From Deltaproteobacteria bacterium (GTDB taxonomy: Bacteria > Desulfobacterota > Deferrimicrobia > Deferrimicrobiales > Deferrimicrobiaceae): a DNA stretch of 64,000 bases. The notes under the pieces were generated by a model. The model searched no databases. It was not told the origin of the DNA and worked only from the letters and a program-made list of their open reading frames with translations. Numbering within the stretch: the first letter of the stretch is position 1; each line of letters opens with the position of its first letter. Positions 20,365 to 28,384 of this stretch are shown here, piece by piece. The stretch is taken from positions 288,112 through 352,111 of the forward strand of contig JAKAHC010000002.1 of NCBI GenBank assembly GCA_021815305.1. Reading direction: 5' to 3'. Made by a program: the position numbers and the translations under genes.

Positions 20365-20630
20365 TCAGTACTTTTTTGATAGGGCATGCCTCAGACCGTC
20401 GATGTCCAGCGCCTGGTCTGCCACGATCCGCTTCAGCCGGGTGTTCTCCGCCTCCAGGGTCTTGAGCCTGCGAACGTCGGAGATCTCCATGTCGGCATAC
20501 TTGGCCTTCCAGCGGTAGAAAGTTCCTTCACAGATCCCGTGGCGTCGGCAAAGATCCTTGGTGGGGGTTCCGGCGTTGGCTTCCTCAGAATGGCAACGAT
20601 CTTCTCCTCGGTGAACCGTTTCCCTTTCAT
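20365..20630 (-). pseudogene. IS3-family transposase OrfA, frameshifted
   Basis: ATG 20630 begins MKGKRFTEEKIVAILRK, the usual OrfA start with an HTH domain. After residue 17 the frame is lost by a small deletion or insertion. The neighbouring frame continues EANAGTPTKDLCRRHGICEG, then TFYRWKAKY and a leucine-zipper-like segment (LKTLEAENTRLKRIVADQAL), ending ALSKKY at 20365. Broken by one frameshift. Confidence 0.8.
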
Positions 20631-23838: not shown

Positions 23839-24360
23839 TCATCGCTCGATCTTCGACAGCCACTCCTCACGCCAGAAGAAGTGGCACGTCCTGTCGCAGG
23901 GGCCGAAATCGACCGTCCCCTGGCATTGGACCCCTTCGAGAATAACGATCCCCCTGCATTTCTTGACGCGCAGATCCCGCTCGTCGAGGAATCTCTCGAC
24001 GCGCTTCAACACCTTCTGGGTGGTCCCGCAATATTCCCACATCTCTTCCATGAACACGCACCCTTTGGTTGCGTTCCAGCGACTGAGCGTGGCTTCGATG
24101 TCCTCCCTCGCGCAGACCCGTACCAGGTCCCCCTTCCGGAGACTCCCGGCCGCGGTCTCGACGGAACCGACCGCCGGTCTGGCGCGGAAGATGTCTCTGA
24201 GAAGATTTTTTATGTAACGGATCCGCCTCTTGAGGATTCGCTTCACCCTGTGCGGGAGCTGGAAGACGATCTCGTACATCCGCAGCGCGGGTGCGATGAC
24301 CGTCCATCCTCGAAGCTGGCACATCTTCTCCGTCGTGTCGTCGCTATGGCGTGGAATCAT
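23839..24360 (-). CDS. conserved small cysteine-rich protein of unknown function
   Basis: A 173-residue soluble protein with no signal peptide or membrane helix. The C-terminal 100 residues look highly constrained: LRKGDLVRVC, FMEEMWEYCGTTQKVLKRV, FLDERD, CRGIVILEGVQCQG, then CDRTCHFFWREEWL. Five or more cysteines here suggest metal binding or redox function. From memory, proteins of this pattern recur in polysaccharide loci without an assigned activity. The ATG at 24360 lies inside the end of the M28 peptidase frame if the UGA of that gene is read through (17-bp overlap), which suggests coupled translation of the two. Confidence 0.7.
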   Translation of the reverse strand: MIPRHSDDTTEKMCQLRGWTVIAPALRMYEIVFQLPHRVKRILKRRIRYIKNLLRDIFRARPAVGSVETAAGSLRKGDLVRVCAREDIEATLSRWNATKGCVFMEEMWEYCGTTQKVLKRVERFLDERDLRVKKCRGIVILEGVQCQGTVDFGPCDRTCHFFWREEWLSKIER

Positions 24361-25348
24361 GCTGGCCTGCCAAAGATGAGATCGTCCGAATCACGGCCGT
24401 CGTCGTTCGCTGCAGGAACCAGAAATCTATCTTGTCAGCGGTATCCGATCGGGAGTGCTCGAACGGGTTCTCGTAGAAGGAATTGATGTACACGGCGTGG
24501 TATCCTTCTGACCAGAAGGAGCCCTCGTCGCCTCACCCGCAGTCATCGCGAACGACCTCTTGGACGTTCAGCCCGGCAGTCCTCCTCATCTCTTTCCCGA
24601 CGGTGCGCACGAGAGCACGTTCCGTCGTCTTCCCGGCTACGAGGAGGACATTGTCGCCGTAGGCGAGGCCGTACAGGAAGTTGCGCACGGCGCGCCAAAG
24701 GCCCTTCGCCTTGCCTTTCCAGGTGGCATGCGACGACAGCGCCTTGAGCACCGGGAGCGACCTCGGCCGGTTGTAGGCCAGGACATCGAGATTGACCACC
24801 ACTTCGATGTCCTTCCTCTCGCTCCGCGCGGTTCTCGCGAAGCGGCGGCTCCCCGCCGTCCGGACCTCTTCGTTGGAGAACACGCACAGGTAGACAGACT
24901 TGTCCGGCTTGAGACCTCCGAGTGCGCGGCCGACCTCGAGGATCGCGGCGACGCCGCTCCCGTTGTCGTCGCCCCCCGGGGCGGAGCCGTCCTCGCTGTC
25001 GGAAATGGAGTCCAGGTGGGCCACCGCCATGACGATCTTCGCGGGCTCCTTGCGCCCCAGCACGACCGCCACGACGTTCGGCCACGGCTTTCCGTGGTCG
25101 TCGTAGCTTCGTATGTCGGCGTGGACGCCGAAGGACGAGAGCTCTGCGGCGATCCAGCGTGCCGCCTCCCACTGTCGTTCCCACGTTCGCCGCTCCCCCA
25201 TCCCCTGAAAATGCCTGACCGTCTCGAACATCCGGGCCCTGTCGGCCTGCGGGGTCGTTCCCGCCCGTGCCGGCACCGGGCCCGCCATTCCCGACACGAG
25301 CATCGAGGCAACGAACACCCACGCTGCGGTCCCTTTTGCGCCGTTCAC
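24344..25348 (-). CDS. secreted M28-family peptidase with in-frame TGA (candidate selenoprotein)
   Basis: GTG 25348 overlaps the preceding FemAB-like stop by 4 bp (GTGA). A signal peptide (AAWVFVASMLVSGMAG) is followed by an M28 zinc peptidase domain: AHLDS, GGDDNGSGVAA, FSNEE and NLDVLAY carry metal ligands and the catalytic Glu. At codon 272 (24535-24533) the frame meets TGA after VVRDDCG. Without any frame change it continues GDEGSFWSEGYHAVYINSFY, then ENPFEHSRSDTADKI, which supplies the last ligand His and the usual Asp-Thr segment, and ends at TAG 24344. A hairpin suited to a bacterial SECIS follows the TGA. Termination at TGA would remove a metal ligand and leave a 172-bp gap in an otherwise overlapping operon. 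Full product: 334 residues. Alternative: recent nonsense mutation or sequencing error. Confidence 0.7.
24503..24520 (-). promoter_or_regulatory. candidate bacterial SECIS hairpin
   Basis: On the minus strand, 12 bases after the TGA, the RNA is UCCUUCU-GGUC-AGAAGGA, a perfect 7-bp stem with a four-base loop. The loop starts 19 bases after UGA. The E. coli fdhF SECIS upper hairpin likewise begins about 11 bases after UGA and presents a GGUC loop to SelB. The stem lies inside codons for SFWSEG, so chance or protein constraint could contribute. Confidence 0.5.
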
Positions 25349-26406
25349 GCGACGTACCTGTAATAGGCCCGGCCCACCATCGTGAACAGCGGTGTCGGCA
25401 TCCGCTTGAGCGCGGTGGAACCCCAGGAATAGGGAAATCCGCTCCGTTCCGCCGGGCGCACCGCCTTCGCGTCTTTCGGATAGTAATACATCGGAAGATC
25501 GACCACTTCGGTCCCCCACCGTTTCTTGAAATCCATCAGGCCGTCGTTTTCGACATGGGTCCGGCCGAAGTCGAAGATCTCGCGCCCCTCCCGGCACGCG
25601 GTCTGTATCGCGTCCCAGAGGAGAATGTGGTTCGGATTGAACTCGCGGAAGCGCTCATCGGAGACAAGGTACTCCGCAGACAGACGTTTCCCCATCTTCA
25701 ACACAAGGATCCCGGCGACGTTCTCGCCCCGGTACTCCGCCAGGTTGATCGCCAGATGCCCGCTGCGCGAGAAGGTCTCCCAAAGCGACCGTATGAAGCC
25801 GTACGGTTGCGGCGGCAGGCCGAGCCGCCGCCGCGTAAGCACGTACAAACGGAAGAACTCGCGGACCGCCGCTTCGTCGGCCGCCCCCTTCACGACCACC
25901 CCGCTCGAGGAGGACCGGGAGATCCGCTGCCGCACGCAGGTGCGGTCGAACCGCTTCATCAGCAGCTCCGGCGGACGGTCGAGCCGGATGAAGTGATGCT
26001 TGTATTCCCGGATCACCGAGAATTCGTCGTTCGGGAAAAGCGGCGCGGAGTTCAGGGCGCGGATTTCGAGGAACCCTGCCCTTTTCTCGTGCGAAAAATC
26101 CGCGACGGCCTTCAGCAGCAACGCCCCCTGTTCCGCGGTTTCAGCCAGGAGGTCCGCGATCGTCGCCATGGGGATGCTGACGACCTGCCACTTCTGCAGG
26201 ATGCCGCGAAGGAGATAGACGGGAATTCCCGCGACGATCTGGCCCCCGTCGAGAAGGGCGAAATGGAACGCCTTCGCGCGCGGGATGGATCCCTCGATGA
26301 CGCGTCTCCAACCTTCCAGGTGCGAGACCCATCCGAAGGGATGTGCTTCGACGAAACTGTCCCAGGACCCGTCCTTCGAGGGATCGATGAGGACGACGCC
26401 GGCCAT
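25345..26406 (-). CDS. FemAB-like GNAT-fold protein
   Basis: ATG 26406 overlaps the deacetylase stop by one base (TGATG). The 353-residue protein has two GNAT-like halves, as in FemAB and the FemAB-related proteins of exosortase-associated loci: HPFGWVSHLEGWRRVIE near the N-terminus and the C-terminal hallmark FDFGRTHVENDGLMDFKKRWG. These proteins may transfer aminoacyl or acyl groups, and the substrate in glycan loci is not known. It stands between a deacetylase and the M28 peptidase in a chain of overlapping genes, which suggests N-acylation of freed amino groups. That link is inference. Confidence 0.8.
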   Translation of the reverse strand: MAGVVLIDPSKDGSWDSFVEAHPFGWVSHLEGWRRVIEGSIPRAKAFHFALLDGGQIVAGIPVYLLRGILQKWQVVSIPMATIADLLAETAEQGALLLKAVADFSHEKRAGFLEIRALNSAPLFPNDEFSVIREYKHHFIRLDRPPELLMKRFDRTCVRQRISRSSSSGVVVKGAADEAAVREFFRLYVLTRRRLGLPPQPYGFIRSLWETFSRSGHLAINLAEYRGENVAGILVLKMGKRLSAEYLVSDERFREFNPNHILLWDAIQTACREGREIFDFGRTHVENDGLMDFKKRWGTEVVDLPMYYYPKDAKAVRPAERSGFPYSWGSTALKRMPTPLFTMVGRAYYRYVA

Positions 26407-27335
26407 CACGCCTCCTTGACCATAGCACGGATCCAAAAATCGGCCATCTCCCGCGGGAGCACATGCCAATACTGCCCCGAATACCGGGATTTGATGTATT
26501 CGAGCAAGCCGATGTAGTTGGATACGGGATACTCCTCGGAACGGAGACGCCCGCCGTCGAAGCACATGTAGTCGGGATGCGTGTTCAGGAGGGCCATGCC
26601 GCCTTTCTCCGCGATCCAGTCCAGCTTCTTCTTCCAGATCTCGTTGTTCGACTCCCGCATGAGGATGAACGGCGTGAAGTCCTGCGGCAGCGTGTACGGA
26701 AGCTCCACGTACCCCCGTTTCCGGCCGTCGCCTCCGCCAAACCAGAACGGGAAGATCGTTCCTACCCCGTCGGCGTACGGCTCGAACGGATCCGTGTCGA
26801 ACATCGACTCGTCGTAGAGGATGTCTAGGTCGAGAATCCAGTCGAGCTTGTGATGCATGGACGGTGTGCGGTATCCGACCGCTTCCCACTCCTTCAGGTA
26901 TCGATTGATCTCCTGCGCCCTCCGAAGGAACTCCCCCCGCGACTCGAAATACTTCCCGTCGTGATATAAACCGTGCACTCCCACCTCGAAGCCGGAGGAC
27001 GCGATGAAATGCCGCAAGGCCGGCGAGACGTCGTATCGCTTCGGGACGAAGTTGAACGCAGATCGGAACTCCAGACGAGCCTCTCTCTCCAGGAGGAGGC
27101 GGCAGCGGTCATGGCCCCTTTTCGTCTCGACATCGTGGGTCAGGACCAGCGCAAAACGCTTTCCGTCCGGCCACCCTTTCCACCCCGAAGGAGGCTGGCC
27201 GGCGGCGGGGTCGATGGGCCAGACATCGCTGTGCCGCTTCAACTGCCGTGCGACTAGCATCCGGCGCAGCAGAAGCTGCAGGAACCGCGGGATCAGCGAT
27301 TTGAGCCGGTAGAATATTTTCAGGAGGAGTGGCAC
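26406..27335 (-). CDS. polysaccharide deacetylase (NodB-like)
   Basis: The open frame reaches 27617 but overlaps the next FemAB-like gene. GTG 27335 gives about 309 residues with the expected N-terminus (KIFYRLKSLIPRFLQLLLRR). Motifs: FALVLTHDVETKRG (catalytic and metal Asp), FEVGVHGLYHDGKYF (His-x4-His type metal site), YRTPSMHHKLDWI and LLNTHPDYM. It removes N- or O-acetyl groups from the polysaccharide or a precursor. No signal peptide is evident, so it may act in the cytoplasm. The start has no good ribosome site and is uncertain. Confidence 0.83.
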   Translation of the reverse strand: MPLLLKIFYRLKSLIPRFLQLLLRRMLVARQLKRHSDVWPIDPAAGQPPSGWKGWPDGKRFALVLTHDVETKRGHDRCRLLLEREARLEFRSAFNFVPKRYDVSPALRHFIASSGFEVGVHGLYHDGKYFESRGEFLRRAQEINRYLKEWEAVGYRTPSMHHKLDWILDLDILYDESMFDTDPFEPYADGVGTIFPFWFGGGDGRKRGYVELPYTLPQDFTPFILMRESNNEIWKKKLDWIAEKGGMALLNTHPDYMCFDGGRLRSEEYPVSNYIGLLEYIKSRYSGQYWHVLPREMADFWIRAMVKEA

Positions 27336-27349
27336 GGAAGGGATCGAGT

Positions 27350-28384
27350 TCAGGCCATGTACTTGTAGATGGCGGAACCGATGCAGCGGGAGACGGAGAT
27401 GGGCATATTCCGGAAGAACCTGTTGTGCACCCCTTTGATCATGGACGCGGAGGTCACGTAGGCCCCCGTCGCATAGTCGTATTTCACATATCCGATGACG
27501 TCTTCCCTCGTACCCCACCCGTTTTTGAACTGCCTGAGACCCTCGTTGTCCGGCTCGGTCCGCCCGAGGCACAGGGTCCGCGTCCCCCGGGCCGCATACC
27601 ACCGGATCGCTTCCCACATGACGAGGTTGTTCGCCCGGAACTTCTGGTACCTCCTGTCGGAAGCTCCGAACTTGTATACCGCCTTGTCGCCGAAGTGGAG
27701 GTATACGGCTCCGGCAATCGGTTTCCCCTGGAAGTACGCGATCGCCACGAATCCCGAATCATTCTTCCGGATTGCCCGGCTCAGGCTCGCGAAGAACCTT
27801 GTCGGCTGCGGCGGAAGTCCGTGGTCTCTCCGGGTAAGGCAGTTGAGCCTGTAAAAAGCCGCCATCGTATCGTCTGTCTGGTTCATGGTGACGGAGACGC
27901 TCTGCGAAGCCGCCTTGCGGATGTTCCGCTGCGTGCTTCCGCGGAACCTGCCGTACAGCACACGCTCGTCGGGGAGAAGGTCGAGCACGTGTCCACGGAA
28001 GGTAGCCGACGCCGAGATCTCCGGGGGAAGCGGGCCGCGCCGCCGAACCTCGAAACTGCGCCACCCCCTCGTACGCCCGCATTCGTACACGGCAGCCAAG
28101 GCCTTCTGAAACGACACCCCTTCCCCAAGGAGAGGATCGCAGTAATCGGAGAACGGGAGAGCCACGGCGCGCCGGCCCGAGAGAATGCAAGAGACCTCCA
28201 TGACGGGGATCGCCATCTCGAGGGTCCCGTTCCTTCGACTGATGAGGTATCTCGCATCGAACCCGTACGACTCCATCAGGACTTGCGCCCAGAACGTGGT
28301 GTGGAAGACAGATGCCTGGCGGTGGGAAGCGACAAGGTCGTCCCAACCGTTCCAGGCCAGCGGGTTGACGATATCGAAGTCCAA
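27350..28384 (-). CDS. FemAB-like GNAT-fold protein, second copy
   Basis: A 344-residue protein from TTG 28384, 13 bp after the aminotransferase stop. It shares the FemAB-like architecture with the gene at 25345-26406: SVFHTTFWAQVLMESYGFDA at the N-terminus, STQRNIRKAASQSVSV in the middle, and LGRTEPDNEGLRQFKNGWG at the C-terminus in place of the FDFGRT segment. The two copies are clearly diverged, so they probably act on different substrates. No ribosome site is obvious before the TTG. Confidence 0.78.
   Translation of the reverse strand: MDFDIVNPLAWNGWDDLVASHRQASVFHTTFWAQVLMESYGFDARYLISRRNGTLEMAIPVMEVSCILSGRRAVALPFSDYCDPLLGEGVSFQKALAAVYECGRTRGWRSFEVRRRGPLPPEISASATFRGHVLDLLPDERVLYGRFRGSTQRNIRKAASQSVSVTMNQTDDTMAAFYRLNCLTRRDHGLPPQPTRFFASLSRAIRKNDSGFVAIAYFQGKPIAGAVYLHFGDKAVYKFGASDRRYQKFRANNLVMWEAIRWYAARGTRTLCLGRTEPDNEGLRQFKNGWGTREDVIGYVKYDYATGAYVTSASMIKGVHNRFFRNMPISVSRCIGSAIYKYMA

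Follow-up and report, generated by a model that had tools for sequence, protein, structure and literature searches.

An in-frame UGA very probably read as selenocysteine in a family of predicted exported M28 zinc peptidases

Introduction

Is the single in-frame TGA that interrupts an M28 peptidase gene a genuine stop, or is it decoded as selenocysteine (Sec)? This question is raised by a locus within a 64,000-nucleotide stretch of DNA (contig JAKAHC010000002.1 of assembly GCA_021815305.1), hereafter the window. The original prediction was that UGA is read as Sec, giving a redox-sensitive or altered-metal M28 enzyme in a polysaccharide locus, with a nonsense mutation as the main alternative. 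Here, we show by comparative genomics that the Sec reading is strongly supported, and that the same UGA occurs at the same position in related peptidases from at least four bacterial phyla. By contrast, we find no support for the altered-metal idea.

Results

An M28 reading frame with one internal TGA

The M28 frame lies on the minus strand (24344..25348), starting at GTG 25348 and ending at TAG 24346-24344, and encodes 334 residues. It contains one TGA, codon 272, at 24535-24533, and continues in the same frame for a further 62 codons. The gene overlaps the upstream FemAB-like gene by 4 bp and the downstream gene (ATG 24360) by 17 bp. Pfam Peptidase_M28 (PF04389) matches residues 91-321, spanning the TGA (5e-27; 95.3 bits versus a gathering score of 21.3). 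The ENPFEHSRSDTAD segment, encoded beyond the TGA, carries the last M28 zinc ligand, His298 (24455..24457, minus strand), equivalent by alignment to His256 of the Vibrio (Aeromonas) proteolyticus aminopeptidase AAP. The details given in the original prediction were all found as stated. However, a TGA between two open stretches is not rare by itself in this GC-rich window, where 68 TGAs pass a simple length filter, and a coding-score scan for other read-through TGAs was not discriminating. A TGA between two open stretches at 20367 (minus strand) falls in what looks like an insertion-sequence transposase pair, and is probably part of an ordinary two-frame IS element rather than a read-through site. 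The case therefore had to be decided by comparison.

Conservation of the TGA

A protein search of 395 genomes of the same phylum gave three strong relatives in other families (E about 1e-45, 34-37% identity), each with one internal TGA. Translation placed all three TGAs at the same column, in the contexts QCG[TGA]GDEMSFW, QCG[TGA]GDELSFW and ACP[TGA]GDEASFW, as compared with DCG[TGA]GDEGSFW in the window. We then scanned the genomes of 84,980 species for the codon pattern C-x-TGN-GDE-x-(S/T)-F-W, which treats Sec, Cys and Trp codons alike. Sixteen stretches matched, of which seven are M28 genes, found in Myxococcota (locus L039), Desulfobacterales (L041), Calditrichaceae (L045), Syntrophobacteraceae (L048), Deltaproteobacteria (L051 and L053) and Acidobacteria (L054). 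All seven have TGA, and none has TGC, TGT or TGG. The other nine are short frames with mixed codons, which translation showed not to be M28 genes, and these were rejected as chance matches. L048 and L051 are the same loci as two of the three relatives found first, so the set comprises nine distinct sequences including the window, from Desulfobacterota, Calditrichota, Acidobacteriota and Myxococcota. Most of these come from metagenome-assembled genomes. All nine match PF04389, and all nine have TGA at the same column.

Other searches added no members. A first protein scan of the genome and viral contigs, using peptide patterns specific to the window, found nothing, and a plasmid search gave only distant M28 proteins. 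No relative was found in the window's own taxonomic family (24 genomes), and profile searches of the Calditrichota (40) and Acidobacteriota (396) samples gave no new Sec member and no Cys form of the clade.

Selenocysteine machinery in the host genomes

The window's genome contains selA (538.7 bits), selB (301.9 bits), tRNA-Sec (74.1 bits; anticodon UCA by ARAGORN) and selD, all over the curated cut-offs. Its selD (L101; contig C5, 107630-108625) has an in-frame UGA in the context CAG[TGA]ASKLG, which appears to be the known Sec site of that enzyme, so Sec is in use in this genome. Among the eight other host genomes, tRNA-Sec is over cut-off in seven and SelB in seven, and each genome has at least one of the two. 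The two gaps, tRNA-Sec in G069 and SelB in G407 (which holds the same contig as the 85%-complete G032), are in incomplete or fragmented assemblies. The host genomes of L039 and L048 (G403 and G406) each contain two tRNA-Sec genes and two SelB matches over the cut-off, which lie close together in G403 (contigs C97 and C114) and on contig C12 of G406; these may represent two Sec decoding systems, or mixed bins.

Selection on the sequence and hairpin after the TGA

The part after the TGA is under purifying selection. In the close pairs L018-L051 and L048-L054, dN/dS there is 0.11/0.71 and 0.21/1.25, respectively, and in most pairs identity after the TGA is as high as or higher than before it. The zinc ligands and catalytic Glu are invariant in the nine-sequence alignment, including His111, Asp128, Glu160 (catalytic), Glu161 and Asp188, which lie within 24785..25018 (minus strand), and His298. 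Also invariant are Cys270 (24539..24541, minus strand), Sec272, GDE and SFW.

In the window, a SECIS-type hairpin with a 7-bp stem (UCCUUCU/AGAAGGA) and a GGUC loop occupies 24520-24503 (minus strand), beginning 12 nt after the TGA, with its loop starting 19 nt after it. This hairpin fits all four constraints of a published bacterial SECIS model, namely a loop of 3-9 nt with G in the first two positions, a stem of 4-16 bp, a distance of 16-37 nt from the UGA, and an MFE of -7.5 kcal/mol or lower (PMC13188914); its 26-nt form has an MFE of -10.7 kcal/mol. Rfam found nothing relevant at this position. Eight of the nine members have a hairpin whose loop starts 18-19 nt after the UGA, with G in the first two loop positions, while L039 has one at 27 nt with loop GGU. 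In L045, L048, L053 and L054, the short hairpin alone is weaker than -7.5 kcal/mol.

Because SFW-x-x-G codons favor such a hairpin, we compared each with synonymous recodings of the same protein using the gene's own codons. The hairpins of the Sec members are stronger than recoding predicts (Fisher p = 1.1e-5), whereas the same test at the same place in 42 non-Sec M28 relatives gave p = 0.30, and the two sets differ (Mann-Whitney p = 0.001). One caveat is that L018 and L051 are related, which makes the Fisher value somewhat optimistic, and the hairpins of L045, L048, L053 and L054 are not individually significant (p = 0.17-0.45). Among five members aligned without a gap, one stem pair is C-G, U-A and G-C in different members, consistent with compensatory change, and the structure beats its slid versions. 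Five sequences are few, and this lends supporting evidence only.

Family, predicted structure and gene neighborhood

The nine sequences form a single clade (support 99/96) nested among aminopeptidase-like M28 proteins. At the Sec column, the other M28 proteins have Trp, Leu, Phe, Tyr, Arg and others, and no Cys was seen among close relatives or the 42 M28 outgroups. A Cys counterpart appears only in the more distant secreted leucine aminopeptidases. Profile alignment to solved structures places Cys270 on the first and Sec272 on the second Cys of the C-x3-C pair of AAP and fungal LapA, with two residues deleted; Legionella LapA shows the second Cys. An AF2 model of the window's protein (pLDDT 85.6, pTM 0.84) best matches the Aeromonas/Vibrio and Streptomyces aminopeptidases. 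Export is inferred from an N-terminal hydrophobic helix in the model and in the sequences of the homologues.

Directly upstream of the peptidase gene is a gene for a FemAB-like (GNAT fold) transferase (25345..26436, minus strand), which matches PF13480 and PF02388, and TIGR03019 below its cut-off. Related genes stand directly upstream of the Sec peptidase in Calditrichaceae (L097) and in Acidobacteria (L054), with 36-38% identity. A second, different FemAB-like transferase in the window (27350-28384, minus strand) resembles the one in L053. Directly downstream is a gene for a small Cys-rich protein (23839..24360, minus strand) with no Pfam or NCBIfam match. Homologues with 34-39% identity lie near the Sec peptidase in L097 (3564-4490, plus strand) and L098 (9840-10424, minus strand), such that this family (YCG...C...C..C..FW.E.WL) is seen in three distant genomes; in L097, two copies are fused in one protein. 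The window's sequence groups with that of Calditrichota L045 (97/93), which, together with the lack of a relative among the 24 genomes of its own family, suggests horizontal transfer.

Discussion

We find that UGA-272 is very probably decoded as Sec by SelB carrying Sec-tRNA-Sec, recruited by the hairpin 12-30 nt downstream. Read-through is needed for activity, as follows from M28 chemistry, because the last zinc ligand lies after the UGA. What Sec does in the enzyme is less clear. C223, Y225 and C227 of AAP probably line its substrate pocket, and Cys270 and Sec272 take the place of C223 and C227 in our alignment, shortened to C-x-U. The leading, though tentative, idea is that they form a reversible selenenylsulfide or selenol/thiol pair at the mouth of the active site, which tunes or switches the peptidase with redox state outside the cytoplasm. 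The M28 enzyme PaAP is reported to be fully inhibited by DTT and mercaptoethanol (PMC11313473), which fits a functional disulfide but could also reflect metal chelation. The enzyme probably acts with the neighboring FemAB-like aminoacyl/acyl transferase on an envelope or exopolysaccharide-linked substrate, an inference from the conserved gene neighborhood.

It is also possible, though unlikely, that Sec is inserted but serves as a metal ligand or as an active-site nucleophile or acid. Sec lies next to the GDE motif, in a segment that aligns with the C-x3-C region of leucine aminopeptidases, and the clade replaces the usual S-D-H with G-D-E, so local chemistry has changed. On the other hand, all canonical zinc ligands and the catalytic Glu are retained, and the Sec position aligns with Cys, Trp, Leu, Phe or Tyr in other M28 proteins, not with a known ligand. 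More doubtful still is the idea that Sec mainly makes enzyme production depend on selenium supply, with no special chemistry at position 272. Termination at the UGA removes His298 and would give an inactive protein, so selenium supply would gate activity; however, the C-x-U pair and the flanking GDE are invariant, which points to a role of the side chain. Read-through as Trp or another standard residue, by a suppressor or leaky decoding, is very unlikely. Many ordinary M28 proteins do have Trp (TGG) at this column, but hairpins are selected only in the TGA members, and Sec aligns with Cys in the nearest solved homologues. Finally, although split frames do occur, a nonsense mutation or sequencing error is excluded by the same TGA in nine separately assembled genomes across phyla, the low dN/dS after the TGA, and the intact zinc ligands on both sides.

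This appears to be a selenoprotein family missing from published lists. No M28 peptidase is among the 87 prokaryotic selenoprotein families listed in 2022 (PMC9312934), peptidase and M28 terms are absent from the main text of the 2025 deep-Sep paper and the 2026 review, and our literature searches for an M28 selenoprotein were empty, although these did not extend to subscription papers, preprints or supplementary tables, where an earlier prediction cannot be excluded. No NCBIfam model covers the clade at its cut-off, and automatic annotation would be expected to truncate members at the UGA and lose the last zinc ligand. Selenium is usually explained by thiol-redox catalysis, so a zinc peptidase with an invariant C-x-U pair gives a clean case for asking what Sec does outside a classical redox enzyme. 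Because no Cys was found at the site among close relatives, methods that rely on Cys/Sec pairs are poorly placed to find this and similar families, which suggests that the prokaryotic selenoproteome is under-counted.

Like the families on the 2022 list, the peptidase has a UGA with a downstream hairpin and selABCD in the genome, and its C-x-U motif is found also in FtrB, a UshA-like protein and thioredoxin-like Sec.1. Most listed families are thioredoxin-like, and the listed trypsin-like serine protease has another fold. Nearly all selenoproteins have Cys homologues, and the lack of a close Cys form in our searches is unusual in this regard. The gene context resembles the XrtA/PEP-CTERM exopolysaccharide loci with FemAB-like proteins (TIGR03019), in that the window contains FemAB-like genes and genes for chain-length-determinant-like, polysaccharide-deacetylase-like and flippase-like proteins; however, all these matches are below NCBI's curated cut-offs, and no exosortase was identified here. 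Among known enzymes, the closest are AAP and the secreted leucine aminopeptidases (M28; PDB 1amp, 7oez, 6esl), which share the fold and di-zinc site and are secreted, as is inferred for the peptidase, but are only about 20% identical and have C-x3-C in place of C-x-U and S-D-H in place of G-D-E, without a UGA-coded Sec.
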